Part shown: positions 2,702 to 15,544 of the stretch, one piece after another | How positions within the stretch are numbered: the stretch's first letter is position 1 | How the letters are laid out: the number at the start of each line of letters is the position of its first letter | From: Streptomyces kanamyceticus | GTDB lineage: Bacteria; Actinomycetota; Actinomycetes; Streptomycetales; Streptomycetaceae | Assembly: GCF_008704495.1 (NCBI RefSeq) | Contig: NZ_CP023699.1 | Coordinates: 6,138,001-6,202,000, forward strand | Direction: 5' to 3' | Length of the DNA stretch: 64,000 bases | Notes under the pieces: model-generated | Told to the model about the DNA's origin: nothing | Seen by the model: the letters and a program-made list of their open reading frames with translations, nothing else | The model's database searches: none | Position numbers and translations under genes: made by a program

Positions 2702-2841
2702 CGTCGCTCCTTCACGGTGCCCGTCCGCGGTTGCGGCGGCAGGTTGTCAGCCATCGTGTCACGGTGCACCGGCGTCGGGGCCGGGCGCCGTAGGGGCTGT
2801 AGACCTTCAATTGTCCGATGGGTACGGGGCAGACTGGGCGG

Positions 2842-4008
2842 ATGGCTGATCAGTACGCGCAATCCAGCGAGCACACACGGCCGACCGAGCTCCCGGCGAT
2901 CCCCGCGATCCCCGCGATCCGTTGGGACGAACCCCCTGAAGGGCCCGTGCTGGTCCTCCTCGACCAGACCAGGCTGCCGGGCGAGGAAAGCGAGTTGGTG
3001 TGCACCGACGCACCGGCTCTGGTGGACGCGATCCGGACGCTGGCGGTGCGCGGGGCACCGCTGCTCGGCATCGCGGGGGCGTACGGCGTCGCCCTGGCCG
3101 CCGTCCGCGGGTTCGACGTGGACGAGGCGGCGGACGCCCTCGCGGGGGCGCGGCCCACCGCGGTCAACCTTGCGTACGGTGTACGCAGGGCGCAGGCGGC
3201 GTACCGTACCGCGATAGCCGGTGGTGATGGTGTCGGCGGGGCGGCCGGTGCCGCGCTGGCCGCGGCGCGGGCACTGCACGCCGAGGACGCTCGGGCCAGC
3301 ACGGAGATGGCGGCGCGCGGTCTGGCGCTGCTCGACGAGCTGTTGCCCGGCGGCGGGCACCGGATCCTCACGCACTGCAACACGGGGGCGCTCGTCTCCG
3401 GTGGCGAGGGCACGGCGTTCGCGGTCGCGCTCAAGGCGCATCGGGAAGGGAGTCTGCGCAGGCTGTGGGTGGACGAGACGCGGCCGCTGCTGCAGGGGGC
3501 CCGGCTCACCGCCTATGAGGCGGCACGGAACGAAATGGCGTACACCTTGCTCACGGACAACGCGGCGGGTTCGCTGTTCGCGGCGGGAGAGGTGGATGCC
3601 GTACTGATCGGTGCGGACCGCATCGCGGCCGACGGTTCGGTGGCGAACAAGGTGGGGAGCTATCCGCTCGCCGTGCTGGCGCGATATCACCATGTGCCGT
3701 TCATCGTGGTGGCGCCGGTGACGACCGTGGACCCGGCCACCCCGGATGGGGCGTCCATCGAGGTGGAGCTGCGGTCCGGCCATGAAGTGACGGAGGTCAC
3801 GGTGCCGTACGCGCCGATGACCGGGAGAGACGCGGGAGGCGGTATTCCGGTGGCCCCCCTGGGGACCCAGGCGTACAACCCCGCATTCGACGTGACGCCG
3901 CCGGAGTTGGTGACGGCGATCGTCACGGAAGAGGGCGTTCTGTCACCTGTGACAGCAGAGGGCCTTGTCGAGCTGTGTGCCAGGTCACGCCAGGTAACGA
4001 TTAGCTAA
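2842..4008 (+). CDS. mtnA: S-methyl-5-thioribose-1-phosphate isomerase
   Basis: It converts methylthioribose-1-phosphate to methylthioribulose-1-phosphate in the methionine salvage pathway in the cytosol. The 388-residue protein has the eIF2B-like fold: RTLAVRGAPLLGIAGAYG near residue 65, the catalytic cysteine in THCNTGALVSGGEG (about Cys179), and the catalytic aspartate in GADRIAADGSVANK (about Asp259). An upstream in-frame ATG at 2818 would add eight residues; 2842 is preferred because the family begins near MADQ. In related genomes mtnA directly precedes mtrA, but here a 10.7-kb element separates them. Confidence 0.95.
   Translation: MADQYAQSSEHTRPTELPAIPAIPAIRWDEPPEGPVLVLLDQTRLPGEESELVCTDAPALVDAIRTLAVRGAPLLGIAGAYGVALAAVRGFDVDEAADALAGARPTAVNLAYGVRRAQAAYRTAIAGGDGVGGAAGAALAAARALHAEDARASTEMAARGLALLDELLPGGGHRILTHCNTGALVSGGEGTAFAVALKAHREGSLRRLWVDETRPLLQGARLTAYEAARNEMAYTLLTDNAAGSLFAAGEVDAVLIGADRIAADGSVANKVGSYPLAVLARYHHVPFIVVAPVTTVDPATPDGASIEVELRSGHEVTEVTVPYAPMTGRDAGGGIPVAPLGTQAYNPAFDVTPPELVTAIVTEEGVLSPVTAEGLVELCARSRQVTIS
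3984..3998 (+). promoter_or_regulatory. Candidate MtrA-type direct repeat
   Basis: GTCAC and GTAAC lie in tandem with a 5-bp spacer inside the last codons of mtnA. OmpR-family regulators such as MtrA and GlnR bind two pentamer half-sites with an 11-bp or similar period. Because mtrA would be the next gene without the inserted element, this could be an autoregulatory site now about 10.8 kb from its target. It lies in coding sequence, so chance is possible. Confidence 0.3.
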
Positions 4009-4090
4009 TGGGATGTTGTCGGCCTGATCGTCGAAATCGGCCCCTTCACCTGCGGCGATTCACAGGGGGAGGGGCCGTGACATCCAAGCT

Positions 4091-5362
4091 CTACATCAAC
4101 GAAGCCTCACGGTCCGCCTGACCAGCCTCTAACTGCTGGATGCGGGCCGGTTGCCGCAGCAGCCGATCAAGCTGACTTACCGCTGCAACAACATCAGGGT
4201 CCAGTGCCTCAGCGTAGATGTCGAGCGTCGTTGCGATCCGGCTGTGCCGCAGAATCGCCTTGATGACTCGTGGGTGCACCTTGAGGTGGACCAGAAGCGT
4301 GCCGCAGGACTTGCGGAGCCCCTTGGGGTTCATCTTCCCGAGTTGCTCAGCCTCTGACTCGTCAGCCTCGAAGAAGTACGGCGAGGGCTCCGGGTAGAGG
4401 TTCGCCGCCTCGATCACGCGCTGCATGGTCAGATAGAGGTTCTCCGCGAGGAGCGGGCGACCAGTCCGAGTGACGAACACATGCCCCTCAGGATCATCGA
4501 ACCAAGGACGTCCTCTGCTGATCGCGCGCTCTCGCAACCAGGCCGTACGCATGCGAGTCCACCGCAACGGGGCGATGCACTGCGCGGGCAGCGGCAAGGG
4601 GGCCTTGGAAGTCTTGGACTTGGGATCCACGTCGACCGTGCCAGCACTCGTGCGCTGTCGCTGCTGCTCCACCCAGAGAATGCGATTGTCCAGGTCGATG
4701 TATTCCCACCGAAGGCCGCACACTTCCGCTCGTCGCAGGCCCAACAGGCAGAGGAGGAGGAACGCCGGGTAGTACACCGTCAGACGCCGAGCCGCAGCCA
4801 GGAAGCGCAGGACCGTCACGGCGTCCCAGCTCTTCCCACTGTCCGTGGGCGCCCGGACGTGCACGAGCTTGGCCACGTTCCGCGTGAGTCCGATGTCTTC
4901 GACCATCGCAGCCGTAAGCGCCGCTGAGAGCACCCGGAGGACATGCCGGGCGGTCTTGGCGGTCTTCTCCTCTGCCAGAAGCTTCACGGCCCCGCGCAGC
5001 TCTTTGACGCCCAACTTGACCATGACTTTGGAGCCGAGACGCGGACGCAGGTGATTGCGCACGGCCTGTTCGTAAGTCCGATAGCTACCTGCGGAGAGAT
5101 CCGGCTTGACGATGACCGCCAACCAGTAGTCGAACCACTGGCCCAAGGTCATGTCCCGGGTCGGCGTTGGAATGCCGCTGTTGGCGCGCTCAAGCAGATC
5201 GCGGCGCATCCCGTCGCACTCGTCGAAGGTCTTCCCGTAGGCGTACTTCCGCTTCCTGGTTCCGTCTGGCTGTGGGACGTATACGGCTGCCTGATAGCGG
5301 CCATCGGCACGCCTGGTGACTGTGCCCGAGCCGTTGGGGTTGCGCTTGCGCTGACCAGCCAT
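4091..5362 (-). CDS. int: Site-specific tyrosine recombinase (AICE integrase)
   Basis: It catalyses integration and, with Xis, excision of the element. The 423-residue protein has an N-terminal SAM-like core-binding domain (about residues 70-155) and a C-terminal catalytic domain. Visible catalytic residues are Arg210 in GLRRAEVCGLRW, Arg350 in NPKGLRKS, His373 in LRHSRIATT and the nucleophile Tyr383 in LDIYAEA. The usual His of the HxxR box is replaced by Lys (KGLR). The gene ends with TAG at 4093-4091, inside the putative left attachment repeat, as expected for an integrase abutting att. Its start overlaps the xis stop by one base (TGATG). Confidence 0.95.
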   Translation of the reverse strand: MAGQRKRNPNGSGTVTRRADGRYQAAVYVPQPDGTRKRKYAYGKTFDECDGMRRDLLERANSGIPTPTRDMTLGQWFDYWLAVIVKPDLSAGSYRTYEQAVRNHLRPRLGSKVMVKLGVKELRGAVKLLAEEKTAKTARHVLRVLSAALTAAMVEDIGLTRNVAKLVHVRAPTDSGKSWDAVTVLRFLAAARRLTVYYPAFLLLCLLGLRRAEVCGLRWEYIDLDNRILWVEQQRQRTSAGTVDVDPKSKTSKAPLPLPAQCIAPLRWTRMRTAWLRERAISRGRPWFDDPEGHVFVTRTGRPLLAENLYLTMQRVIEAANLYPEPSPYFFEADESEAEQLGKMNPKGLRKSCGTLLVHLKVHPRVIKAILRHSRIATTLDIYAEALDPDVVAAVSQLDRLLRQPARIQQLEAGQADREASLM

Positions 5363-5550
5363 CAGGAAGCTTCATCAAGCCGCGATTGGATGTAGTCCTG
5401 GATAGCGCTCTCGGGGATGCGGCGGGCGCGGCCCTCGGTGATGGAGACGAGCCGCTTCGCCCGGATCAAGTCATAGACCTTGGTGCGCCCGTACTTGAGC
5501 CGGGCCATGGTCTCCTTCACGGTCAACAGTTCAGGGGCTCGCGCGATCAT
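5362..5550 (-). CDS. xis: Excisionase, MerR-like winged HTH
   Basis: This 62-residue protein has the excisionase family pattern: LLTVKETMARLKYGRTKVYDLI forms the helix-turn-helix and is followed by the wing and GRARRIPESAIQDYI. It would bend attachment-site DNA and bias the integrase toward excision. The ATG at 5550 overlaps the replication gene stop as ATGA, and the stop overlaps the int start, so repSA-xis-int is one coupled operon, as in pSAM2. A longer open frame upstream is only the antisense shadow of the replication gene. Confidence 0.93.
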   Translation of the reverse strand: MIARAPELLTVKETMARLKYGRTKVYDLIRAKRLVSITEGRARRIPESAIQDYIQSRLDEAS

Positions 5551-6938
5551 GTTGCGGCTCCTTCCAGGGCTAGTTGGTCGTGCAGGGCTTCGCGGGCGGT
5601 CTCCCGGTTGAGCTGGAGGTCTTGGGCGATGGTGGCGGCGAGGGCGGATTCGCCGGGGGTGTGGCCGTGTCCGGCGTATTGCCAGTCGGCGAGGACGAGC
5701 ACGGTGTCCGGGTCGGTGTCGTCGAGTCCGAGGGTGTGGCGTTCTTGGGTGGCGCGGTAGTCGGCTCGGAGCTGGCGGAGGGTGCCCAGGGTGGTGGAGT
5801 AGCGGCGGGACTTGGTGGAGAAGTGGCCCCGGAAGCCGAGCATGTGAGCCCAGGCCCACAGGCGCCGGTCGGGGTAGAGCGGATCGAGCAGCTTGCAGGC
5901 TTTGATCAGGCGGCGAGCGTGGTCGGGGACGTGGTGGCGGTCAAGTTCGGTGAGTTCGCCAATCCGGCGATCGAGGGTGCCGGTTGTCTCGGCTGCTTTG
6001 GTGGCGTACTTGGCGACGTAGGAGGCCACTGCCTGCTCGGTGATGTCGGTGCCATCGTCGAAGGCCTTGATCGGCCGGATGTCGAGTTGGGCGCCCCAGC
6101 GGAAGACGCGTGCGGGTTGGTCGTCGACCGCCGAAACGTTGATCGTGGTGTAGGGGTGTGCGGCGGCGGCGCGGATGGCGTGGGTGAGGAGTTCGGCGGT
6201 GGCCCAGCACGGCGGTCGGTCTTCGGGCCCGTCGGGTCCGTCAAGGCGGATCACGGCGTGGAAGTGGATGGCGCCGCGTTTCTGGAATTCGGCGACCTTG
6301 CCGTAGGAGAGCCGTACGGCGTCGGCGAGTTCGCGGCGGGTGAGTCCGGCACGGGCGGCGAGTTCGCGGCGCAGGCGGGTGGTGAAGCGCTGCCAGAGGT
6401 CTCCTGCGTGGTTGTTGAACAGGACCGCCCCGGCGTAGTCGTAGATCGCCGGATCGAGCGCCGTACCGATGACCGGGGCGTCTTCTGTGTGCGGGGTGCC
6501 GCAGCGGCAGCGGCCGTGGGTGGGCCGGTTGTGGACGGGTCCGAAGGAGGGGGCGGTGAGGGTAGCGAAGACGCGGGGGTGATCGCGGACGGTGGTGGGG
6601 ATGTCCTTGTCGGTGTCTCCGACGAGTCCGGCGCGGATGAGGTGGTAGGTGTCCCCGGCGTACGTCCAGGCGCAGGCGGGGCAGCGGGAGGCGCGGCGGT
6701 TGCCGCAGGCGATGCGCAGGCGTCCGCCCGGCTCGTGCTCGGTCGTGTAGTGGTGCAGGGTCTGGCCGGTCGTCTTGTCCTTGGTCAGGGACCAGCCGGT
6801 CAGGTGGATGGGGTTGGCACAGCCACCAGTGCGCTTGATCTGGTCTTGCCAGCGGTCGAAGTCGGGTTGGGAAGCCACCCTCAGCAGATCGCCCAGGGTG
6901 ATGGGGTCCAGGCCTGCAAAGGACGCGGTGTCGCTCAT
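5547..6938 (-). CDS. repSA: Replication initiator, RepSA-type
   Basis: It is the 463-residue rolling-circle-type initiator of AICEs. It would nick the element's double-strand origin after excision. The start ATG at 6938 follows a GAGGGGG ribosome site, and upstream in-frame starts would overlap the preceding small gene. Features seen are a cysteine cluster (RCRCGTPH, RASRCPACAW) typical of these initiators and a KRGAIHFHAVIRLDG segment, whose HxHxxIR-like histidine pair matches the metal-binding motif of HUH-type Rep proteins. A conserved tyrosine downstream (KYATKAAE context) could be the nicking residue. It overlaps xis by 4 bp and the upstream small gene by 4 bp. Confidence 0.9.
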   Translation of the reverse strand: MSDTASFAGLDPITLGDLLRVASQPDFDRWQDQIKRTGGCANPIHLTGWSLTKDKTTGQTLHHYTTEHEPGGRLRIACGNRRASRCPACAWTYAGDTYHLIRAGLVGDTDKDIPTTVRDHPRVFATLTAPSFGPVHNRPTHGRCRCGTPHTEDAPVIGTALDPAIYDYAGAVLFNNHAGDLWQRFTTRLRRELAARAGLTRRELADAVRLSYGKVAEFQKRGAIHFHAVIRLDGPDGPEDRPPCWATAELLTHAIRAAAAHPYTTINVSAVDDQPARVFRWGAQLDIRPIKAFDDGTDITEQAVASYVAKYATKAAETTGTLDRRIGELTELDRHHVPDHARRLIKACKLLDPLYPDRRLWAWAHMLGFRGHFSTKSRRYSTTLGTLRQLRADYRATQERHTLGLDDTDPDTVLVLADWQYAGHGHTPGESALAATIAQDLQLNRETAREALHDQLALEGAAT

Positions 6939-7147
6939 GCGTGGTCCCCCTCGTTCTGCCTCTTGGGGGTGCGGTCGGAGCAGAAGCGATCGGCGCCGGG
7001 GTGCTGCTCGTTCCACGCTTCGGCGCAGACCTTGTGAACTGCTTCGCCCGTGTGGGAACGCAGCGGGGTGGACTTGCCGCACAAGGTGCAGGGGCAGGCG
7101 CCGCGATGATCGAAGTGCTCACCGGAATGCCAGTTGAGGAGGCCCAT
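6935..7147 (-). CDS. Small conserved AICE protein with Cys/His pairs
   Basis: This 70-residue protein starts at ATG 7147 behind GGGAGGTGACC, a strong ribosome site. A CPCTLCGKS motif, further His residues and a later Cys in VHKVCAEAW suggest a small metal-binding fold. The stop overlaps the repSA start as ATGA, so it is translationally coupled to the replication gene. Its function is unknown. Similar small proteins sit immediately before repSA in many Streptomyces elements, so a replication accessory role is possible but unproven. Confidence 0.75.
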   Translation of the reverse strand: MGLLNWHSGEHFDHRGACPCTLCGKSTPLRSHTGEAVHKVCAEAWNEQHPGADRFCSDRTPKRQNEGDHA

Positions 7148-7152
7148 GACGG

Positions 7153-7341
7153 TCACCTCCCGGCAGTGGCGAAGGTCGGGGGACGGTCGAACAGGGCGCC
7201 GACGCCGTGGCAGTCCTTGCAATCGACGGTGATGGTCCGCAGGTGGCCGTGCCGATCGCGTCCGCCCGAGGTGATGGCGACGGAGGCGACGCCATCGCAG
7301 GACGGGCAGATTCGGGGCACAGCAAAGCCACGGTCGGTCAT
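7153..7341 (-). CDS. Small zinc-finger-like protein (two CxxC motifs)
   Basis: It has 62 residues with CPSCDG and CKDCHGVG motifs separated by about 27 residues. The pattern resembles half of a DnaJ-type zinc domain or a rubredoxin-like knuckle. The ATG at 7341 has GGAAGG upstream. It lies 5 bp before the next small gene of the replication operon. No specific function is assigned. Confidence 0.7.
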   Translation of the reverse strand: MTDRGFAVPRICPSCDGVASVAITSGGRDRHGHLRTITVDCKDCHGVGALFDRPPTFATAGR

Positions 7342-7432
7342 GATGGAGGTTCCTTCCGGTTGAGAGATCGGGTAGGGGCGCGGGCCGTCCGGGCGGCGGA
7401 TTCTTGGTCGTTGAGGCCGCCCGGAGGGCCGG

Positions 7433-7768
7433 TCAACGCTGCTTGGCCTGAGCGCCGATCAGGGAGCGGATGACCAGGGCACAGATCGCGAGCGCGGTGG
7501 CGGTGACGGCAACCGCCAGGAGCACGGAGACCAGGACCGCGCCGACGACCAGGACCACGGCCGTGCCACCACCGACCACGGCAAGCAGGGAGCCGGGGGT
7601 GAGCTGCGCCGTCGGACGGACAGGCGCGACCGGCGCCGGGGCGGCGTGTCGGCAGGCGCAGCACGTGGGGGCATGGGGGTGGCCAGGCTGAGTGATTGCG
7701 GTCGGGGTGAGGATCGGGATCGGGTCACCGGTCGGGGCCGGGTTGATGGGGATGCGGGGATGGAACAT
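7433..7768 (-). CDS. spdD: SpdD-like spread protein
   Basis: The protein has 111 residues. A Pro-rich N-terminal half holds a CCACRHAAP cluster; the second half is a long hydrophobic stretch (about residues 62-105, LLAVVGGGTAVVLVVGAVLV and following) that makes one long or two short membrane helices. This layout matches the SpdD-like proteins of AICEs and Streptomyces plasmids, which help spread incoming DNA through recipient hyphae and affect pock size. The GGAAGG site precedes the ATG. Assignment rests on composition, position and length. Confidence 0.7.
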   Translation of the reverse strand: MFHPRIPINPAPTGDPIPILTPTAITQPGHPHAPTCCACRHAAPAPVAPVRPTAQLTPGSLLAVVGGGTAVVLVVGAVLVSVLLAVAVTATALAICALVIRSLIGAQAKQR

Positions 7769-7793
7769 GGGTGGGGCCTTCCTTCGGGGCGGG

Positions 7794-7949
7794 TTACTTG
7801 ACGGCGGTGTCGAGGGCTGGGGCGAGCAGGCTGTCGGCGAGGAGGTAGCCGCCGAGCAGCAGCACGACGACGAGCCAGAGCGGCGGACGGGCCAGCTTGA
7901 TGCCGAGGTAGCCGATCACCGCGAGGGTGAACCAGAGGGGGACGGACAT
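7794..7949 (-). CDS. Tiny membrane protein of the spread cluster
   Basis: A 51-residue reading frame (ATG 7949, TAA 7794) encodes two hydrophobic segments, VPLWFTLAVIGYLGIKLA and PLWLVVVLLLGGYLLADSLL, with a short charged C-terminus. It is in line with the neighbours, 25 bp from the SpdD-like gene and 26 bp after the transfer protein. Short two-helix proteins of this kind occur in AICE spd clusters. Its function is unknown; a role in intermycelial spread is inferred from position. Confidence 0.65.
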   Translation of the reverse strand: MSVPLWFTLAVIGYLGIKLARPPLWLVVVLLLGGYLLADSLLAPALDTAVK

Positions 7950-7975
7950 GACCGGGTCTCCTGTCTGGGCCGGGG

Positions 7976-8167
7976 TCAGCGGATTTGGCAGTGGTGGCCC
8001 TTGGCGGCCATGCAGGCGCCGGAGTAGGTGTTGAAGTCACCGGACCAGCCGCAGCCGTCGGTGGTGCAGGCGGCGGTGTAGCAGTTGCGGCCTTCGCGGT
8101 TGTGGTCAGTGCCGATCTCTACGGGTCCGTAGGCCATGACTCGCTGGAAGAAGAAGCCGTGCGGCAT
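7976..8167 (-). CDS. Small mobile element transfer protein
   Basis: It is a 63-residue protein with ATG at 8167 behind GAAAGGA. Four cysteines (NCYTAACTTDGCGW and a later ACMAAKGHHC with His) suggest a compact zinc-binding fold. The sequence is of the type annotated as mobile element transfer protein in Streptomyces elements and lies between the DUF2637 gene and the tiny membrane gene. Its exact role is not known. Confidence 0.75.
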   Translation of the reverse strand: MPHGFFFQRVMAYGPVEIGTDHNREGRNCYTAACTTDGCGWSGDFNTYSGACMAAKGHHCQIR

Positions 8168-8186
8168 GACGGTGATCCTTTCTGGG

Positions 8187-8846
8187 TCAGGTGAGTTGGG
8201 CGGCGATCGCGTCGGCCATCGGGGCCGGGACGCCGAGGCGCACGCGCAGGGTGTCGGAGTCGATCCGGGCACCGGTGCGGGCCTCGTGCTCGTCGGCGAC
8301 CTTGCGGGCATGGGCCACCAGTGCGGACGGCACCGTGGGAGCTTCGGGCAAGGCCGGGACCGGAGCGGACGCGGAAACCGACGTTGGCTCGACAGCGGCC
8401 ACGGGGCCCGGCTCGGGGGTAGCAGGCTCCGGTGGAACCGGCGTCCGGTCGCTGTCCTTGGTGTCCGCAGGCGCCGGAATGGTCGGGGCGTGGGCGAGCA
8501 GGGTGCCGCCGAGGAAGGCCAGCGCGGGCCATCCGGCCACAAGGAAGCGCAACCAGGCCGGGGGGTGTTCCAGGTCGAGGAATCCGGCGGTGGCCACGTT
8601 CGCGCCCAGCGAGGCGACCAGAGCCGTCAGGAACCAGCACCAGGCCAGCCGGGATGGTCCGCCGTTACGCAGCCTTCGCCAGGCGGCGACCAAGAGCAGG
8701 TCGACCGAGACCGGGTAGGCCCAGGCCTTCCAGCCGTCCTGTCCGGCCGCGACGGCGATGTCATGCAGATGCGCGAAGGACAGCGCCCCGGCGATCACGG
8801 CCTGAACGAGCACGGCGTCCACGCGCCGGACGGTGCGGTGTGCCAT
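8187..8846 (-). CDS. spdB: DUF2637 membrane protein, SpdB-like
   Basis: A 219-residue protein with four hydrophobic segments in the first about 110 residues, a Pro/Ala/Thr-rich linker and a C-terminal basic/helical segment (VAHARKVADEHEARTGARIDSDTLRVRLG) that looks like a small HTH-type domain. The four-helix part is DUF2637, the family that includes SpdB-type spread proteins and is typical of AICEs. ATG 8846 is chosen over GTG 8855 because GAGGTGG sits at proper distance and the upstream gene's TGA overlaps this ATG (TGATG). Confidence 0.85.
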   Translation of the reverse strand: MAHRTVRRVDAVLVQAVIAGALSFAHLHDIAVAAGQDGWKAWAYPVSVDLLLVAAWRRLRNGGPSRLAWCWFLTALVASLGANVATAGFLDLEHPPAWLRFLVAGWPALAFLGGTLLAHAPTIPAPADTKDSDRTPVPPEPATPEPGPVAAVEPTSVSASAPVPALPEAPTVPSALVAHARKVADEHEARTGARIDSDTLRVRLGVPAPMADAIAAQLT

Positions 8847-9016
8847 CACCGCCACCTCACATCAATGAACGTTTCCTCGTCGACGTGATGCGAGCCAGCA
8901 ACGAGGTGGCCGATGTAGTCCTTCACGTCTCCGCGTACTTCGCTGCGCTCAAGCCCGTAGTCCAAGGCCCAGGCGTCGGCATCCACGTCTACGGTGATAG
9001 TGATCCGTACCTTCAT
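8846..9016 (-). CDS. Small hypothetical AICE protein
   Basis: It is a 56-residue frame with ATG at 9016 behind GGGAGG and TGA overlapping the next gene's ATG. The N-terminus KVRITITVDVDADAWALDYG forms an alternating beta-strand pattern followed by a helical part rich in acidic residues (RSEVRGDVKDYIGHLV). The tight coupling and normal codon use support translation. Function unknown; the strand-helix pattern could be a ribbon-type DNA-binding or dimerisation module. Confidence 0.7.
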   Translation of the reverse strand: MKVRITITVDVDADAWALDYGLERSEVRGDVKDYIGHLVAGSHHVDEETFIDVRWR

Positions 9017-9088
9017 GGCTTGCCTCCCTTGCTTGGAGGCCGGGACGGGGCGGGGCTCATAGATCCGGCCGCCCGGTCCCGGCGGTGA

Positions 9089-9268
9089 TCAGTCGGTGGA
9101 TGCTTCGCCGGAGCCCATACAGCCCAGACACAAGCCGTTCTGTTCGCCGACGACGCGGCGCTTGCGGCCGACACGGACGGGCCGGGCGACCTCCCCGGTG
9201 CCCTTGCACGTCCGGCATTCCTTGACGTCGGGCTTGCCGGGGGCAGGCTTCTTCGCGACCACGCTCAC
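9089..9268 (-). CDS. Small protein with two CxxC motifs
   Basis: About 59 residues. CRTCKGTGE and CLGCMGSGE are two knuckles of the DnaJ CxxCxGxG type separated by a basic, Arg/Lys-rich loop. The GTG at 9268 overlaps the upstream stop as GTGA; GTG at 9271 is the alternative start. The glycine-containing knuckles argue for a real zinc centre. No function is known; it is one of several such proteins in the element. Confidence 0.65.
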   Translation of the reverse strand: MSVVAKKPAPGKPDVKECRTCKGTGEVARPVRVGRKRRVVGEQNGLCLGCMGSGEASTD

Positions 9269-9459
9269 CACTCCCCGCCGGAGTTCGGGGGACCGTCGAT
9301 GGGGCCGCTGCCGGGCGGGAGGTCGGTAGGCAGGGACGCGGCCAGCGAGGGGCCGATCACCGCCACGAACTGCTCATCAGCGCCAGGCCAGTTGGCGTAC
9401 ACGACCAAATCACCGAGCATCGCCACGGTGCGGTCCAAGTCGTCGCAGTGATCACACAT
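9265..9459 (-). CDS. Small hypothetical acidic protein
   Basis: 64 residues, ATG 9459 with GGAGAG upstream. An N-terminal CDHCDDLDR motif precedes a hydrophobic stretch and a Pro/Gly-rich tail (LPPGSGPIDGPPNSG). It is translationally coupled to the next small zinc-type gene. Nothing identifies its role. Confidence 0.6.
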   Translation of the reverse strand: MCDHCDDLDRTVAMLGDLVVYANWPGADEQFVAVIGPSLAASLPTDLPPGSGPIDGPPNSGGEW

Positions 9460-9520
9460 GCCGCTCTCCTTCAGGTGGTGGCATGGGATGGATAAGGACG
9501 TGTGGGCGGTCGAGGCGCCG

Positions 9521-9679
9521 TCAGCGCCGTGCGGCCTGCTCGACGTGCAGCCGGGCCTTGGTGGCCATCTCCCGACGTGAGCAGGTCGGGCGGCCCATGG
9601 CGCCGCAGGAACAGCGGAAGTTGTAGTTGCCGAAACCGACGTCGTAGACCTTGGTGCGGTGCTTGCGACGCAGACCCAT
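9521..9679 (-). CDS. Small basic protein with CxC/C motif
   Basis: A 52-residue frame read from ATG 9679, preceded by GAGAGGTGATCC. It is strongly basic (MGLRRKHRTKVYD), has a strand-rich aromatic section (VGFGNYNFRCSCG) and a third Cys in RPTCSRREM, ending in a helical tail. The longer overlapping frame from 9707 is in another register and lacks this ribosome site. The product is conserved in type among AICEs; possible nucleic-acid binding is inferred from its charge. Confidence 0.65.
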   Translation of the reverse strand: MGLRRKHRTKVYDVGFGNYNFRCSCGAMGRPTCSRREMATKARLHVEQAARR

Positions 9680-9764
9680 GACGGATCACCTCTCTGGATG
9701 TGGACATGGCGGGGGTAGGGACTTGGCGCGAGGTGGTCGCGCCGACCGGTGGAGCGGGAGGGTT

Positions 9765-11120
9765 CTAGACGGCTTCAGCGACGGGTTCGGCCGTCGCGGG
9801 CACCGGGGCCGCAGCGGTGGGGATGCGTGGGCGGAAGCGGGCCAGCTCCGGGAGATCCGGGGTCAGGTCAGCGTGCCGGTTGCAGGCGTTCACGGCCTGG
9901 CGCAGCGTCGTGTGCGGGGTGCGGATGCGGAACCAGTCGCCCGTGGAGTAGCCGACCACGGCCATGCCGCGCCGGTCGTTGGGGATCTGCGTGGCGGCGA
10001 ACACCGCGTAGGGGGAGATGTCCCCGAACGCCATCCGGGCCGAGGATTCGTCGTTGACCCGATGCGCGGTCCGCCCGGTCAACTGGGCGCGCAGCATCGT
10101 GATCCCATCACCCAGCTCGGAGCCGAAACGCTGCCCGTAGATATCCAGGAACACCCCAGCCGCACGCCCGAGTTGGGCCAGCCGGACCAGGGCGGTGATG
10201 ATCCGATCCCGGCGCTTCTCCTGCGCCTTGCCGGAATACAGGGCCAGTTCGGCCACCTCATCGACGGTGAGCAGGACCGGGATGGGCCGCAGGTGTTCGG
10301 GCAGACCCCAGATGTCGGCGGTGATCTCCGCATGCGGGGTGTCGGCGCTGACGCGCTGCTCGCGCCGGATGATCTCGTAGATGCCTTCCATCCGGTCGAC
10401 CAGGGCTTCGAGCATCTCCATCGCGTCATCGGGGTTGTCCGCCAGCGCGGAGAAGCGGCGGGCCATCGGGGCCAGTTCGACGCCGTTCTTGCAGTCGATG
10501 CCGACCAGCGCGATGGGCAGTGCCGCGAGTTCCTTGATGACGCGGCGCTGGTAGACCGACTTGCCCGACTGGGTGGCGCCCAGGGTGAGCGAGTGCGGTG
10601 TCTCGCGGTAGTCGCGGCAGTGGATGCGGCCATCCTCCCGCAGCGCGAGCGCCACTTTCAGACCGTCGCAGGCGACCCGTGCGGGCATCTGGACTCGCTT
10701 GAGGACGTCATAGCCGGTCATGGTGATCTCGACGATGCCGGGCTTCGCCTCGCGGGTGATGACCTGATGGACGGCGAAGGAGTGCCGCAGCCGGTCGGCC
10801 GCCGCCGAGAACACGAACGCGTCCTGCCCCGGCAGCATCTTGATCCGCAGCCGCAGGCCGGTCCGCGTCGGGGAAAGCCGCAGCAGCCGGGGAACCCGCT
10901 GGCGGGGTATCTCCCGGCCGAACGTGCGGGCCATGGCCAACCGGAAGCGTGAGGCCGGGACGGTCAAGTGGCAGGCGTCCATCACGGTCGCATAGCGGAC
11001 CCGGATGCGGATCGCGGCGAAGAGGACCCCGAAGGTCATCCAGTACCAGGCGGGACGGCGCCACCGAAGCAGCAGCGCCAACCCGGCCACGATCGCTAAG
11101 GCGATCGCTAACCAGCCCAT
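9765..11120 (-). CDS. traSA: TraSA-type FtsK/SpoIIIE DNA translocase (conjugal transfer)
   Basis: It is the septal DNA pump that moves double-stranded element DNA between hyphae, the only essential transfer protein in this class. Of 451 residues, the first about 45 include a hydrophobic N-terminal membrane region. The motor domain shows Walker A GATQSGKS (181-188) and Walker B PVLLTVDEVAEL (Asp287-Glu288). The C-terminal part (residues about 400-451) is Pro/Ala-rich with basic patches, expected to carry the DNA-recognition winged helix, which in TraB proteins reads 8-bp clt repeats. It starts 2 bp after the upstream SCO3933-type gene, so they share a transcript. Confidence 0.92.
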   Translation of the reverse strand: MGWLAIALAIVAGLALLLRWRRPAWYWMTFGVLFAAIRIRVRYATVMDACHLTVPASRFRLAMARTFGREIPRQRVPRLLRLSPTRTGLRLRIKMLPGQDAFVFSAAADRLRHSFAVHQVITREAKPGIVEITMTGYDVLKRVQMPARVACDGLKVALALREDGRIHCRDYRETPHSLTLGATQSGKSVYQRRVIKELAALPIALVGIDCKNGVELAPMARRFSALADNPDDAMEMLEALVDRMEGIYEIIRREQRVSADTPHAEITADIWGLPEHLRPIPVLLTVDEVAELALYSGKAQEKRRDRIITALVRLAQLGRAAGVFLDIYGQRFGSELGDGITMLRAQLTGRTAHRVNDESSARMAFGDISPYAVFAATQIPNDRRGMAVVGYSTGDWFRIRTPHTTLRQAVNACNRHADLTPDLPELARFRPRIPTAAAPVPATAEPVAEAV

Positions 11121-11122
11121 GA

Positions 11123-11479
11123 TCAGGCCGCCTTGGACTTGGCAGGTGCCTCAGCCAGGGAGGTGACCGCCACGGCACGGAAGCTGATCCCGTGCCGCTT
11201 CTGCCCGTTGAACTCGTTCTCCCACGGCCGGGCAACCACACCCGTCAGGGCGACCGGGGTACCCATCGCGAGCTCACCGGACAGGCCGGTCTCCGGAACG
11301 GCCAGAGACAGGATCTCGGCATTCCCGTCCATCACGAACATCACGTCGACCGTCCACAGCGTGACACCGGTCTCCCGGTCCGTGGCGATCTCACCGGTCT
11401 GCCGATTCGAGATCTTCTTCATCGGAGGCTGCGCCACCATCATGACGGCGGACGAAACATCTACGGGGATCTGACGCAT
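11123..11479 (-). CDS. SCO3933-family regulatory protein
   Basis: 118 residues starting at ATG 11479, which has AAGGAG at good spacing; the GTG or ATG further upstream lacks one. The protein is beta-rich (PPMKKISNRQTGEIATDRETGVTLWTVDVMFV..., WENEFNGQKRHGISFRAVAV) and matches the small proteins annotated as SCO3933 family regulatory proteins next to traSA in AICEs. No classical HTH is visible. It is the first gene of the leftward operon and is divergent from the GntR gene, so it is probably controlled by it. Confidence 0.75.
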   Translation of the reverse strand: MRQIPVDVSSAVMMVAQPPMKKISNRQTGEIATDRETGVTLWTVDVMFVMDGNAEILSLAVPETGLSGELAMGTPVALTGVVARPWENEFNGQKRHGISFRAVAVTSLAEAPAKSKAA

Positions 11480-11534
11480 GAGACGCACTCCTTGCTGAAG
11501 GGTGGATGCCAACTCGCAGATGAATCAAGCTAGT

Positions 11535-11627
11535 TGGACTGGCTTGCACCACTTATGGAACTGGCTCAAACCAGTTACGTCAACCCTCTCCATGCAACTG
11601 GCTTGAGCCAGGGGCTAGACTGGCGCC
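11535..11627. promoter_or_regulatory. KorSA-type operator cluster between divergent genes
   Basis: The 168-bp gap between the SCO3933-type and GntR genes holds related motifs. AACTGG-CTCAAA-CCAGTT at 11559-11576 is a perfect 6-bp inverted repeat. A second copy, AACTGGCTTGAGCCAG, sits at 11596-11612. Half-sites ACTGGCTTG near 11538 and GACTGGCGCCA near 11618 flank them. GntR/KorSA proteins bind such dyads and autoregulate, so these are the likely operators repressing both directions. Confidence 0.7.
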
Positions 11628-11647
11628 AACCATCAAGAGAGGGAGCG

Positions 11648-12421
11648 ATGACCAACCAGACCGAAGACCGGAGGCCGCTCAGCCGACAGATTGCGGATGA
11701 ACTTCGCAATGAGATTGAAAGTGGACAGCACGCATCCGGGGCAAAACTCCCGTCCCAACGTCAACTTGCGGAGCGGTTCAGCGCCGCACGAAACACCGTC
11801 GATGAGGCCCTGAAGATCCTGGCGCAAGAAGGGCTAGTAGTCGCTGAACACGGGCGCGGTGTATTCGTTCGTGTGAAGCAGCCCCTTATTCGGCTTGGCA
11901 GCGACAGGTACTCACCAAAGCATCGGGAAACTGGACTATCACCGTTCCTTATCGAATGTGCAAGGCAAGGGAAGGTCGGAAGGTTTGAAGTCCTTAATAT
12001 TGAACGGATCAAGCCGAATAAAGAGCTAGCCAAGCAGCTCCATGTCTCCGAAAAGGCTAAGTCCGTATTGCGTCGCGAGAATGTATTCTACGCCGACGCT
12101 GACCCGGTCTACCGAGTAACTACGTGGATCCCCTGGCGCATCGCGCAGGGGACGGGGCTGCTCCAAGAAGAAGTCCCGCACCAGTACGGAATCCACGGGG
12201 TGTTTGAAGAAAAGGGTCACGTGATGACCCGCATCAATGATGAGATCACGGCACGTATGCCCACACCTGAAGAGGTCCGCTACCTGAACCTCTCGCCGGG
12301 CATCCCTGTCATCGAGGTGATGCATACCAGCCTTGACCAAGATGGCGAGCCCTACGAGGTAACCAGGTTTGTAATGCGTTCCGACATGAACGGACTTAGC
12401 TACAACGTCCCTGTCGAATAA
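11648..12421 (+). CDS. korSA: GntR-family repressor (KorSA-like)
   Basis: 257 residues from ATG 11648 behind GAGAGGGAGCG. Residues 1-75 are a GntR winged HTH (LSRQIADELRNEIESGQH, LPSQRQLAERFSAARNTVDEALKIL). Residues about 90-255 are a UTRA effector domain. This is the KorSA arrangement: a repressor that keeps the element silent by blocking transfer and replication genes. It is transcribed away from traSA, and the palindromes upstream fit autoregulation. The effector bound by UTRA is unknown. Its codon use is noticeably less GC-biased than that of core genes, in keeping with foreign origin. Confidence 0.88.
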   Translation: MTNQTEDRRPLSRQIADELRNEIESGQHASGAKLPSQRQLAERFSAARNTVDEALKILAQEGLVVAEHGRGVFVRVKQPLIRLGSDRYSPKHRETGLSPFLIECARQGKVGRFEVLNIERIKPNKELAKQLHVSEKAKSVLRRENVFYADADPVYRVTTWIPWRIAQGTGLLQEEVPHQYGIHGVFEEKGHVMTRINDEITARMPTPEEVRYLNLSPGIPVIEVMHTSLDQDGEPYEVTRFVMRSDMNGLSYNVPVE

Positions 12422-12436
12422 GGTGAGGAGTTGTCC

Positions 12437-12967
12437 GTGTCCTGTGACGCCGAAACCGAACAGGCCATAGTCATTCGCGCCCGCAGAGACGCAGATCTCG
12501 ACGAGGCCGCAACAGCGCTGGTAGCGGTTCACGCCGCTGATAGTTATCCCGTCGAAGGTGTCGATGATCCACGGGGATGGCTGAGTCCAAAAGGCTTGAT
12601 CCAAGCATGGGTAGCAGAGGCAGACAGTCGGATAGTCGGCCATGTCGCAATTAGCCAGGCGCAGGCCGAGGAAGCCGTCTCCCTCTACAGGGAGCAGGCT
12701 CATACCGAAGCTCAAGTTGGTGTACTCGCCCGACTTTTTGTAATGCCCCAGGCGCGAAAGAGAGCAGTTGGTGAACGCCTCGTTCGTGCTGCTGTCGAGT
12801 ACGCGCACACCAATGATCTCCGGTTGGTCCTTGACGTAATGACCAAGGACAAGGCCGCCATCCGACTCTACGAACGGATGGGATGGCAGAGCATCGGAGA
12901 CGCATCGCACGCCTACGGCGAGGGGCAGCAGATGCGCGCTGTTTGCTACGTCTCGCCAGCCGAGTGA
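12437..12967 (+). CDS. GNAT-family N-acetyltransferase (element cargo)
   Basis: 176 residues from GTG 12437; the ribosome site GGTGAGGAG at 12422-12430 leaves too little space for TTG 12431. The GNAT fold is recognised from VGVLARLFVMPQARKRAVGERLVRAAVEYA (motif A, acetyl-CoA loop) and MTKDKAAIRLYERMGWQ (motif B). The substrate is unknown. It starts 15 bp after the GntR gene, so it is probably co-transcribed with it. In pSAM2 the corresponding place holds pra/pif, so this could be a replacement accessory gene. Codon use is moderate in GC3. Confidence 0.85.
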   Translation: MSCDAETEQAIVIRARRDADLDEAATALVAVHAADSYPVEGVDDPRGWLSPKGLIQAWVAEADSRIVGHVAISQAQAEEAVSLYREQAHTEAQVGVLARLFVMPQARKRAVGERLVRAAVEYAHTNDLRLVLDVMTKDKAAIRLYERMGWQSIGDASHAYGEGQQMRAVCYVSPAE

Positions 12968-13014
12968 CGAAGCGGACTCCGCACCACACAGCAACGCTGT
13001 ACCGGGCAAGCGGG

Positions 13015-13305
13015 ATGACCAGTACGGTGGTTGAGGGGAAGGCGGTGATTGCAACTATGGGTTGGGTCGATCGAGAGCACATCCCCACCATCGAGCAGGA
13101 CTGGCGCTACACCCGGCTGATCAACATGACGAAGCGTCTGTTGGAGGCCAAGTTGGCAGCTACATGTAGCAACTGCACTGATGGGACGATCACCATTCGA
13201 GACGGTGATGGCAACGAAACCACCATCGAGTGCACGGCGTGCGGTGGGACAGGCATGGCGCCCACCCTGCAAGACAACGAAGACAACGGCCAAGCCGGAG
13301 GTTGA
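13015..13305 (+). CDS. Small zinc-ribbon-like protein
   Basis: The frame ends at 13305. ATG 13015 gives 96 residues and ATG 13057 gives 82; the second has GGGGAAGG upstream but with long spacing. The C-terminal half shows CSNCTDGTITIRDGDG followed by CTACGGTGM, a classic two-knuckle zinc ribbon of the DnaJ type. The N-terminal half is helical with basic residues (DWRYTRLINMTKRLLEAKLA). It lies 47 bp downstream of the acetyltransferase. Function unknown. Confidence 0.6.
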   Translation: MTSTVVEGKAVIATMGWVDREHIPTIEQDWRYTRLINMTKRLLEAKLAATCSNCTDGTITIRDGDGNETTIECTACGGTGMAPTLQDNEDNGQAGG

Positions 13306-13376
13306 ACATCCATCCGTCCATGCGGATGCAGATCGACCACGGATTGGCCGGTCGAACAAAGCCCTACATCGGCTGA

Positions 13377-13928
13377 TCACTTACCGAGGCGGGTGCACGT
13401 GCGCTCAACAGCAGCCCCGAGATACGGGCGCGCCTTGCTGATCGCGGTGTGCACTGCGCTGCCCGGCTCGTACCGGACGAGGATCTCGTCAATCCGGCGG
13501 TCGAAGTCGAAGGACTGCCCGGCGGGACCAGTCGTCATGTCAGCGCAAATCAGCGCGTCGAGGAGCGGTGAGTCTTCCCGCTCGTACTTGGCCAACTCAG
13601 CTGAAAGTCCCCGCTGTTCGGCCTCATACACGGCGCCAGAGTGGTGGGCGACCAGCTGTACGAGCCGCAAAGGAGCGCCGAGCCCTTCCAAATGCCGAGC
13701 ACCGTCGAGGGGGTGGAACCCGGTCTCGCGAAGCTCCGGGGCGTACCCAATGTCATGCAGCCAGGCGGCGGCAACAAGGAGGCCCCGTTCTTGCTCTGGC
13801 ACAGCCGTCGCCACCTCGCGCGCACGGGCCGCAACAGCCTGCGTATGCAACCAGCGGTTTCCAAGCGAGGGCAACAGGGACTCAGCCAGCTCAACCGCCC
13901 CCTGGGGCGTGTCCAGTGCGGTAGGCAT
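13377..13928 (-). CDS. HD-domain protein (predicted metal-dependent phosphohydrolase)
   Basis: 183 residues from ATG 13928; GTG 13937 is an alternative start. The HD signature is clear: RWLHTQAVAARAREVA, then WLHDIGYAPELRETGFHPLDGARHLE, and LVAHHSGAV, giving the H...HD...H ligands. HD proteins of this size hydrolyse phosphate bonds in nucleotides or cyclic nucleotides. It is convergent with the zinc-ribbon gene and is the last gene before the non-coding right end of the element. In pSAM2 the immunity factor Pif is also a nucleotide-type hydrolase (Nudix), so an analogous role is possible. The substrate is unknown. Confidence 0.85.
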   Translation of the reverse strand: MPTALDTPQGAVELAESLLPSLGNRWLHTQAVAARAREVATAVPEQERGLLVAAAWLHDIGYAPELRETGFHPLDGARHLEGLGAPLRLVQLVAHHSGAVYEAEQRGLSAELAKYEREDSPLLDALICADMTTGPAGQSFDFDRRIDEILVRYEPGSAVHTAISKARPYLGAAVERTCTRLGK

Positions 13929-14101
13929 GATTCGCACCGTAGCCGAATCGGATGGCTACCCGACAGCCCCGTGCCGGACGCTCCGGATCATGGCGCTGGA
14001 TAGAACTTTCTCTACTTCATCAAGGCTCGCTGCGCTCGCGTCCACCTGATCAACCTGAGGAGCCAACCACCCTCGCCCTGCGGCTTCGGCCCCCGTCACG
14101 C

Positions 14102-14471
14102 GGGAGAGCCCGCCACGGACCGCCGCCGCGATCCGGCCTAGAAGAGGGAAGAGATCAACAGCATCCGTAGGACGACCAGGCGCAGGAACAAGAACACCCC
14201 CTCAAGGCAACCCACCAGGCCCGAGCCGTCCCCAAGGGGATCAATCCGAAGGACCGAGAGCCCCAAAACGGGGCGGCGCCGGTCGGCCGCCGCCCCGCCG
14301 CCTGAATGTCTACGCCACCGGCCACGGGGCACCGACCGCCCGTCGCCTCCAAGGGGCCAAGAACCCAGCACCGGGCCATGGAGGTACAGGGGATTGCCGC
14401 ACCACAGGTCAACGACGCTTTGTGTTACCGAACAGGCCGGATCGCGGCGGCGGTCCGTGGCGGGCTCTCCC
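14102..14471. repeat. Perfect 38-bp inverted repeats bounding a 294-bp non-coding core
   Basis: Bases 14102-14139 (beginning GGGAGAGCCCGCCACGG) are exactly repeated in reverse complement at 14434-14471. The internal segment has no convincing gene and includes a 10-bp perfect hairpin (CGGGGCGGCG...CGCCGCCCCG, 14269-14297). No flanking target duplication is visible. Possibilities are a miniature transposable element, a conjugation or replication locus of the AICE, or a structured RNA. Confidence 0.85.
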
Positions 14472-14500
14472 ACTACCTGGGCCGTTGCCCCGTGGCCGGG

Positions 14501-14670
14501 GCGGTCGGTGGAGCGGCTTTAGGCAGCCACTTTGGGGCGAGCCTCTAAGATCATGGCCCCGATTCGGACCTTGCGGGCAGGTCCAGTGACTGCCCGAATC
14601 GCGATGAGCTTAAGGGGCCATGATCACTCGCCCCAAAGCAGCTCCCGCCCAAAGCCGCTCCACCGACCGC
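14501..14670. repeat. Nested multi-arm palindrome
   Basis: Arms pair in order: 20 bp perfect (14501-14520 with 14651-14670), 12 bp (CTTTGGGGCGAG 14530-14541 with 14627-14638), 12 bp (GATCATGGCCCC 14549-14560 with 14614-14625), and 7 bp (GATTCGG 14561-14567 with 14594-14600), with a small apical hairpin (GGGCAG...CTGCCC). The result is a long cruciform or stem-loop with internal bulges. It lies at the element's right end in DNA without genes and would suit a single-strand origin, transfer locus or regulatory RNA. Confidence 0.8.
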
Positions 14671-14742
14671 GTTGCCAGGGTGCGCGCTGTAGCGGCAAGG
14701 AGTGGAGCAGGGCGATCGGGGTAGCACGCTCGCTGACATCCA

Positions 14743-14858
14743 TGGCTGACATCAACAGCCACGAACGGCGGCGGACAGTAATGGCCCGATACGACTATCG
14801 TCACAGGCCAGTGACCTGCCTCACCAGTGCCCCGGTCACTGTTACGAGAATGGGATGA
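14743..14858 (+). other. Possible truncated leader ORF of mtrA
   Basis: An open frame from ATG 14743 reads 38 codons (MADINSHERRR...) and stops at TGA 14856-14858, overlapping the first ATG of mtrA as ATGA. It lacks its own ribosome site here. Joined to the left flank at 4077 it would gain one (see findings). The same bases also contain GTCAC-like blocks, so they may equally be promoter DNA. Confidence 0.25.
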
Positions 14859-15544
14859 TGTCAGGCATGAAGGGACGAGTCCTTGTCGTCGACGACGACA
14901 CCGCACTGGCCGAGATGCTCGGGATTGTGCTGCGTGGTGAAGGTTTTGAGCCGTCGTTCGTAGCTGATGGCGACAAGGCGCTGGCTGCTTTCCGGGAGGC
15001 CAAGCCGGATCTTGTGCTGCTCGACTTGATGCTTCCCGGTCGGGACGGCATCGAGGTGTGCCGCCTGATCAGGGCGGAGTCCGGGGTGCCGATCGTGATG
15101 CTCACGGCCAAGAGCGACACCGTGGACGTGGTGGTCGGTCTGGAGTCGGGGGCGGATGACTACATCGTCAAGCCGTTCAAGCCGAAGGAGCTCGTGGCCC
15201 GGATCCGGGCCAGGCTGCGGAGGTCGGAGGAGCCCGCGCCGGAGCAGCTGGCCATCGGTGACCTGGTCATCGACGTGGCGGGGCACTCCGTGAAGCGGGA
15301 CGGGCAGTCGATCGCGCTGACGCCGCTGGAGTTCGACCTCCTGGTCGCGCTGGCCCGCAAGCCGTGGCAGGTGTTCACGCGTGAGGTGCTCCTTGAGCAG
15401 GTCTGGGGCTATCGGCACGCGGCGGACACCCGCCTGGTGAACGTGCACGTCCAGCGGTTGCGCTCGAAGGTCGAGCGGGACCCTGAGCGGCCGGAGATCG
15501 TGGTGACCGTCCGTGGCGTCGGTTACAAGGCCGGACCGAGCTGA
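14855..15544 (+). CDS. mtrA: Response regulator MtrA
   Basis: OmpR/PhoB-family DNA-binding response regulator, 229 residues. The receiver domain has VLVVDDDTALAEML and phosphorylation Asp in DLVLLDLMLPGRDG; the winged helix has VNVHVQRLRSKVE at the C-terminus. MtrA is a global regulator in actinobacteria of cell-wall, osmotic, developmental and secondary-metabolic genes. Starts at 14855, 14858 and 14867 are all possible; the last gives the family's usual MKGRVLVVDDD start. It is followed by mtrB with 1 bp between stop and start, then lpqB. Upstream GGTCACTGTTAC near 14834-14845 could be an autoregulatory site. Confidence 0.96.
   Translation: MMSGMKGRVLVVDDDTALAEMLGIVLRGEGFEPSFVADGDKALAAFREAKPDLVLLDLMLPGRDGIEVCRLIRAESGVPIVMLTAKSDTVDVVVGLESGADDYIVKPFKPKELVARIRARLRRSEEPAPEQLAIGDLVIDVAGHSVKRDGQSIALTPLEFDLLVALARKPWQVFTREVLLEQVWGYRHAADTRLVNVHVQRLRSKVERDPERPEIVVTVRGVGYKAGPS

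Follow-up and report, generated by a model that had tools for sequence, protein, structure and literature searches.

The window analysed here is a 64,000-nucleotide stretch of the Streptomyces kanamyceticus chromosome (NZ_CP023699.1, positions 6,138,001 to 6,202,000, forward strand), in which a mobile element lies between the genes mtnA and mtrA. mtnA (IF-2B family) occupies 2818..4008 on the plus strand, and mtrA occupies 14855..15544 on the same strand, starting either at ATG 14855 or at the in-frame ATG 14867. The DNA at 4016-14857 is predicted to be a pSAM2-type actinomycete integrative and conjugative element (AICE) of 10,842 bp with an integrase for the mtrA site. It combines in one element a tyrosine integrase (4091..5362, minus strand; PF00589 and PF14659), placed in an mtrA-site-specific clade by these Pfam domains and the neighbours of related integrases, a RepSA-type replication initiator (5547..7082, minus; PF20199, E = 1e-148) and an FtsK/SpoIIIE-type transfer protein (Tra; 9765..11120, minus; PF01580). 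The element is flanked by direct repeats of the kind made by integration, and relatives have the empty site. In the parts of the literature consulted, pSAM2-type AICEs share its tyrosine integrase, RepSA initiator and FtsK-type transfer protein (PMC3218068, PMC9513070).

Comparison of the two flanks yields two best ungapped direct matches, AATGGGATG.TGTC (4007-4020 / 14849-14862) and TGACATCC..ACATCAAC (4078-4100 / 14734-14756), and the AATGGGATG and TGACATCC words are more than chance matches, since both recur in related elements. A preliminary description of this DNA had favored the second pair, whose shared words do lie at these positions, as the attachment core and had named AATGGGATG (4007 / 14849) as a competitor; it is the competitor that proved to be the real core, as the TGACATCC repeats lie at unequal distances from AATGGGATG and occur twice in attP. 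The crossover core is thus AATGGGATG, with attB at the junction of the mtnA stop and the mtrA start. The attL copy (4007..4015, plus) is supported by the flank match, the attL and attR of related elements, the empty site of genome G081 and the attP of a circular relative, and the attR copy (14849..14857, plus) contains an mtrA start codon. The mtnA stop (TAA 4006-4008) overlaps the core and is retained in attL, which leaves mtnA whole after insertion; because the core carries this stop for the gene on one side and a start codon for mtrA on the other, both genes survive. With G081, the nearest relative by mtrA and one in which the mtnA stop also overlaps the core, the predicted empty site shares 98 of the 100 positions around the core and, over its whole length, 539 of 580; with G123 the figures are 96 of 100 and 526 of 580. 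The core ends at 14857, inside the first codon of mtrA, and the DNA downstream of it is host sequence (241 of 250 positions identical to G081). As the exact sequence AATGGGATGATG is present in 161 of the 170 scored genomes, an attB/attP pair is on offer at a widely kept chromosomal site.

Found at either end of related elements, the TGACATCC..ACATCAAC repeats are arm-type sites of the integrase; as is usual for such sites, their TGACATC words lie at unequal distances from the core (start to start, 71 bp on the left and 115 bp on the right). The left pair (4078..4100, plus) is seen in the flank match and the aligned ends, and the right pair, TGACATCCATGGCTGACATCAAC (14734..14756, plus), matches 19 of 19 consensus positions. 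Aligned ends of related elements read core, hairpin, arm pair and integrase 3' end on the left, and arm pair, promoter-like block and core on the right. In eight of ten pattern-matched attRs the start of the arm pair precedes the end of the ATG in ATGAAG by exactly 136 nt; the exceptions are L045 (135) and L044 (139, an imperfect match), and L039 and L046 have a shorter spacer that the pattern missed. The hairpin, GGCCCC..GGGGCC (4039..4076, plus), was assessed by aligned ends, folding and covariation. It is found in 17 aligned sequences; 3 of its 15 pairs show compensatory changes, the overall covariation term of +0.19 is slightly unfavourable, and its folding against shuffles gives z = -5.9 in the circular relative and a slight z = -1.5 in the window, with the first two bases omitted.

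The circular relative is a Streptomyces formicae plasmid record (NZ_CP071873.1, locus L250; 27,773 bp) with an integrase 80.3% identical to that of the window. After its integrase gene, on the other strand, it reads arms, GAGGGCAGACAGTGAC..TACGACTATCGTCAC..GTTACGAG, AATGGGATG, ATGTCG.., hairpin, arms. This order is what the integrated ends predict for attP, and therefore the promoter-like block belongs to the element. Its junction lies at AATGGGATG, whereas the preliminary description had proposed looking for a circle junction at the TGACATCC pair. A unit of about 10,384 bp recurs in the record (the same protein accessions lie 10,384 bp apart, with the DNA partly out of register) and fits into its length 2.7 times, as a multimer of the excised element or as an assembly effect.

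A scan of named genomes for the integrase gave 16 loci, and 16 of 16 are at this site, 15 beside mtnA and one (L045) with mtrA at the far end; L051, with a more distant integrase (46-66% in pieces), is likewise at mtnA. Across the genus, 31 of 392 genomes match the integrase at E 1e-90, seven of them, including the window, at 76% identity or more and the rest at 48-51%. We read 29 of these neighbourhoods (L221-L249), with two further matches left out. The six close integrase loci that were fetched (73-79% BLAST identity) are at mtnA in five cases and at mtrA in one (G143), and none of the 23 remote loci (44-47% BLAST) has mtnA or mtrA within its 1.5-kb flanks, while 19 have a tRNA gene there. 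The two integrase sets overlap, with L037/G127, L043/G228, L045/G143 and L048/G099 being the same genomes.

mtrA has a nucleotide match in all 150 genus genomes, the window's included (G139 in part only), and 149 were scored upstream of mtrA, G139 being dropped for its truncated gene; one genome set was scored from its 30 fetched loci only. In class A (82 of 149) mtnA reaches the core, its stop mostly overlapping AATGGGATG, and in class A' (11 of 149), which is defined by this motif, there is no mtnA match and the same terminal motif is kept. Class B (39 of 149, including the window) has the block GGGCAGACAGTGAC..TACGACTATCGTCAC..GGCCAGTGACC..CTCACC..GTTAYGAGAATGGG upstream of mtrA, and 17 of 149 genomes, classed as "other", have different blocks, giving 56 of 149 of non-A type (B and "other"). 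On reading the sequences, we corrected the automatic classes by hand for G093 (to B), G113 and G135 (to A) and G157 (to A'). The 18 genomes without an mtnA match comprise the 11 that keep the terminal motif, six "other" genomes with a class C segment, and the unscored G139. Retention of the mtnA-type terminal motif beside mtrA in the 11 class A' genomes (L110, L112, L113, L115, L117 and others) suggests that the motif serves mtrA. Genomes scored from the family's other genera also include both A and non-A types, with 4 A and 16 other counted prior to a single hand correction. Arm-like sites lie upstream of mtrA in two such genomes, L141 (G165; 18/19) and L147 (G173; 14/19), and on this account the element family probably reaches beyond Streptomyces.

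Within attP the block has the right arm sites on one side and the core on the other, and it contains a sigma-70-like pair and an MtrA box. In the window the pair spans 14772..14801 (plus), with CGGACA at 14772-14777 as the -35-like hexamer, an 18-bp spacer and TATCGT at 14796-14801 as the -10-like hexamer, and the box match is GTCAC-n6-GTGAC (14800..14815, plus), judged by the Streptomyces MtrA consensus GtnAcC-n5-GTnAcn quoted in the part of PMC13189361 that was available. The arrangement CAGACA-17..19-TANNNT, with the -35-like CAGACA at that position, is present in 37 of 39 class B genomes, against 0.03 expected by shuffling, and in none of the 81 class A genomes examined (G121 was not placeable). 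Because two short motifs served to select class B, conservation is informative only elsewhere in the block; the columns there (most of TACGACTA..GTCAC, GTGA, CTCACC) are at least 95% conserved. A relaxed MtrA box, scored as GTnAC-n5/6-GTnAC, is found in 27 of 39 class B genomes (0.34 expected), 38 of 82 class A genomes (0.47 expected) and 6 of 12 attRs, and in none of the 11 class A' (0 expected) or 17 "other" genomes (0.07 expected). Six of the 17 "other" genomes have CTTGAGA exactly 34 nt before ATGAAG, the reverse complement of TCTCAAG, the S. venezuelae mtrA site whose published position is -34 (PMC13189361, consulted in part). To judge from the motif, S. venezuelae would belong to this class. 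A relic arm pair accompanies the motif in G004 (17/19), G015 (18/19), G041 (15/19) and, more weakly, G098 (13/19), and in neither G025 nor G076.

Traces of the element persist in genomes that no longer have it. At a cut-off of 12/19, chosen after the distribution had been seen, the arm consensus stands at attR distance in 20 of 170 scored genomes as against 10 of 3570 control windows. With the five integrase-bearing genomes removed, arm relics are present in 6 of 36 class B and 7 of 15 "other" genomes (13/51), and in 0/82 class A and 0/11 class A' genomes (0/93), where integrase-free means no match at E 1e-100, so that an element may have been missed or left unassembled, most of all in G073 with its short contig. 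Cut-offs from 11 to 15 give 15, 13, 12, 8 and 7 of the 51 B and "other" genomes and always 0/93 for A and A'. Applied to loci without a full element, a model of attL finds the hairpin and arms in G033 (1.5e-17), G102 (2.7e-10) and weakly G017 (0.026); weak matches in G073 (0.0018) and G127 (0.0096), both arm sites, were not used, and class A loci appear from 0.25 on. A loose hairpin pattern occurs within 300 nt upstream of mtrA in 5 of 170 genomes (G016, G046, G102, G110, G143), of which the attL model supports only G102, the G143 locus being outside that test. In G033, mtnA is followed by a core with one base changed, the hairpin and arms, and after a further 233 bp come right arms, block, core and mtrA. 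The two cores are 442 bp apart, and the locus is best read as an element reduced to both its ends. Because arm relics occur in 13/51 B and "other" genomes versus 0/93 of A and A', and because G033 preserves this pair of ends, we conclude from the sequences that such elements have probably delivered mtrA promoters repeatedly, and some genomes appear to have kept the element promoter after loss of the element. In G017 the cut-off upstream copy of the promoter retains 33 of 46 conserved positions and the mtrA-proximal copy 46 of 46. Among five elements in class B hosts with both sides compared, L048 has 38 versus 44 and the other four have both copies good (44-46 of 46); for L041 only the left copy lies within the fetched stretch. 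In three class B loci, L062 (G107), L057 (G013) and L060 (G110), 1.3-4 kb separates mtnA from mtrA with no close integrase match, and these may be further decayed elements.

A tree of mtrA and part of mtrB (116 rows, quick method) requires at least 14 changes between A/A' and the rest, as compared with 32-46 in 200 shuffles, a count that gives no direction. The window's clade on this tree consists of G000, which has the element, two class A genomes (G123 and G081), and G093, whose block is of B type and which has no arm relic. Judged by the relics, the direction is from A to non-A by insertion, which clean excision would reverse. Since the genomes of other genera scored mostly non-A, the root of the family may be of either type.

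At the sequence level, the core, the arm sites, the attP of the circle, the site specificity and the relics are all observed directly. From them we consider it highly probable that this AICE integrates at AATGGGATG and swaps the DNA upstream of mtrA for a portable promoter borne on attP. The integrase would recombine attP with attB, the AATGGGATG at the mtnA stop and mtrA start, and integration would spare both open reading frames (ORFs) while parting mtrA from promoter-like DNA in the mtnA 3' end. The replacement would be a portable mtrA promoter, comprising the -35/-10-like pair, the MtrA box and conserved DNA that extends to the start codon, so that the block may be the active mtrA promoter, MtrA may act on it and excision may switch promoters. 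An element that silenced mtrA would probably be counter-selected; mtrA deletions are bald or conditionally bald, according to the parts of two reports consulted (PMC5650626, PMC13189361). By keeping its target gene expressed and under MtrA control, the element would, we propose, spare its carriers such counter-selection. As an element decays, the new promoter would be the only one and be retained, whereas erosion would affect the arm sites and the old copy. Once the element is free as a circle, the promoter would face the 3' end of int across the core, precisely where the hairpin lies, and our guess is that the hairpin is a terminator or insulator there.

Several observations weigh against this portable-promoter interpretation. 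The next nearest relative, G093, has no simple empty site (63/100 around the core, 349/580 overall), and it is integrase-free at 1e-100; its B-type block stands 430 nt away from mtnA, and it lacks an arm relic. No arm relic at 12/19 is present in 38 of the 51 integrase-free B and "other" genomes. In four of six double-copy loci the cut-off left copy is as good or nearly so (44-46 of 46), leaving the decay of that copy to G017 and, weakly, L048. The window's own -35-like hexamer is CGGACA, the window and G093 being the two exceptions among the 39 class B genomes. The relaxed MtrA box is missing from 12/39 B, 44/82 A, 11/11 A' and 17/17 "other" genomes and from 6/12 attRs, and the mtnA 3' end of class A is highly conserved only in its last 10 nt (0.85), with values further up of 0.61-0.69 versus a background of 0.62, which leaves its role as the old mtrA promoter moderately supported. 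The block might also serve the integrase. Read in that last way, as DNA for an integrase/excisionase complex (an attP arm) with mtrA expressed from a deeper element promoter or by read-through, the block would suit its place inside attP and the near-fixed spacing from arms to core. We find this improbable, however, as integrase-free genomes keep the block while the arm sites are mostly eroded or gone, a -35/-10-like pair lies in the block, in many cases along with an MtrA box, and no block is present in class A left flanks, the attB in ten element loci with aligned ends. A somewhat stronger, though still unlikely, possibility is that the class B block is an old host mtrA promoter captured through sloppy excision, and that integrase-free genomes with the block never had an element. 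The 38 genomes without arm relics would fit this, as would the non-A blocks in other genera and the six element loci whose two ends were both read and whose left flank is non-A (L038, L039, L043, L044, L046, L048), where left and right blocks are of one type. Yet the loci with degenerate arm sites at attR distance, and the ghosts with attL hairpins, must at least themselves have held elements. The block may nevertheless have been captured from some host in the first place, long ago.

The preliminary description had offered another explanation, in which insertion at TGACATCCA severed a 41-codon leader ORF translationally coupled to mtrA, with excision switching that leader. Its motifs are present as reported: GGGGGAGG precedes GTG 4077, which reads VTSKLYINEASRSA and stops after 14 codons; TGACATCCATGGCTGACATC lies at 14734-14753; TGA 14856-14858 overlaps ATG 14855; and joining the flanks opens a frame of 41 codons in the window, a frame that is also open to the same TGA in 8 of 12 attRs. 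The supposed ribosome site is, however, the 3' arm of the hairpin. Element-free relatives, in which the leader was expected, do not keep it in frame: G081 has no such ORF, and there, as in 82 of 149 genus genomes, mtnA occupies the leader position and runs straight into mtrA. The start of the frame is not conserved, and 14 of the 39 class B genomes have an in-frame stop, which in 12 cases falls within the conserved block, as do 2 of 12 attRs have stops in the frame. With empty sites and a circle junction at AATGGGATG rather than TGACATCCA refuting the severed leader, we regard it as wrong almost beyond doubt. The idea of a switch stands insofar as the DNA just upstream of mtrA does change on insertion or excision; the part that is swapped appears to be a promoter and not a translated leader.

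The predicted supply of a promoter by this AICE has precedents in other elements that enter gene 5' ends. One of these, SXT, is a large integrative and conjugative element (ICE) with a different transfer system. Within the parts of the published accounts consulted, SXT/R391 ICEs at prfC have a 5'-end target and give the host gene a new promoter (PMC8409611, PMC4344509), as predicted here, but SXT gives RF3 a new N-terminus and relic promoters are not mentioned in these parts. IMEVchUSA3 and other dusA-specific islands likewise enter a housekeeping gene at its 5' end and give it a new promoter, with lacZ fusions as evidence (PMC8409611); IMEVchUSA3, however, is a gammaproteobacterial integrative and mobilizable element that also provides a new N-terminus, whereas the AICE core lies at the start codon and the protein beyond it is unchanged. 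The AICE differs further in targeting a global regulator and in supplying DNA with a match to the regulator's own box. Insertion at the 5' end of mtrA keeps the frame and adds no new N-terminal coding sequence, and the element is therefore said to work like the SXT/dusA kind without matching it fully. SpyCI islands at the mutL 5' end also alter use of the gene, with a mutator phenotype (PMC4129442, consulted in part), while the window element would supply a look-alike promoter. A survey of AICEs, to the extent consulted, lists 14 insertions in protein-coding genes as well as decayed elements (PMC9513070), and the word "mtrA" does not occur in the main texts of PMC3218068 and PMC9513070. In the open-licence literature we found no report of an element at mtrA. 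Entry at a gene 5' end with delivery of a new promoter is thus already known from dusA and prfC (PMC8409611); what appears new is an AICE clade for the mtrA site, a global regulator as target, an attP-borne promoter with an MtrA-box match and relics of such promoters.

It is conceivable, at odds slightly below even in our judgment, that this AICE family is the vehicle of mtrA promoter exchange across Streptomycetaceae, that by inserting, being lost and inserting again, many times over, it has replaced the mtnA-embedded promoter in more than a third of the sampled Streptomyces (56/149), and that much MtrA autoregulation rests on element-derived DNA. The site studied in S. venezuelae would be included, provided the species carries the class C segment as its published position suggests. 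MtrA governs Streptomyces development and antibiotic production. If a conjugative element does bring in the mtrA promoter and replace it from time to time, differences between species in MtrA regulation would trace back to a simple cause that can be tested, and mobile DNA would have rewired a conserved master regulator with its function not lost.

The remaining genes of the element, assigned by Pfam, encode an excisionase-like HTH_17 protein (5362..5560, start approximate, minus), a DUF2637 protein (8187..8855, minus), a GntR/UTRA regulator (11534..12421, plus), a GNAT acetyltransferase (12431..12967, plus) and an HD-domain protein (13377..13937, minus). A tRNA gene as integration target was rejected, as a tRNA scan finds none in the window. 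A search of a phage collection gave little, with 353 records matching, every one below 60% identity. Ahead of the right arm sites lie two inverted repeats, 14102-14139 / 14434-14471 (38 nt, 100%) and 14501-14524 / 14647-14670 (24 nt, 96%), which may mark a replication origin or transfer locus of the element.

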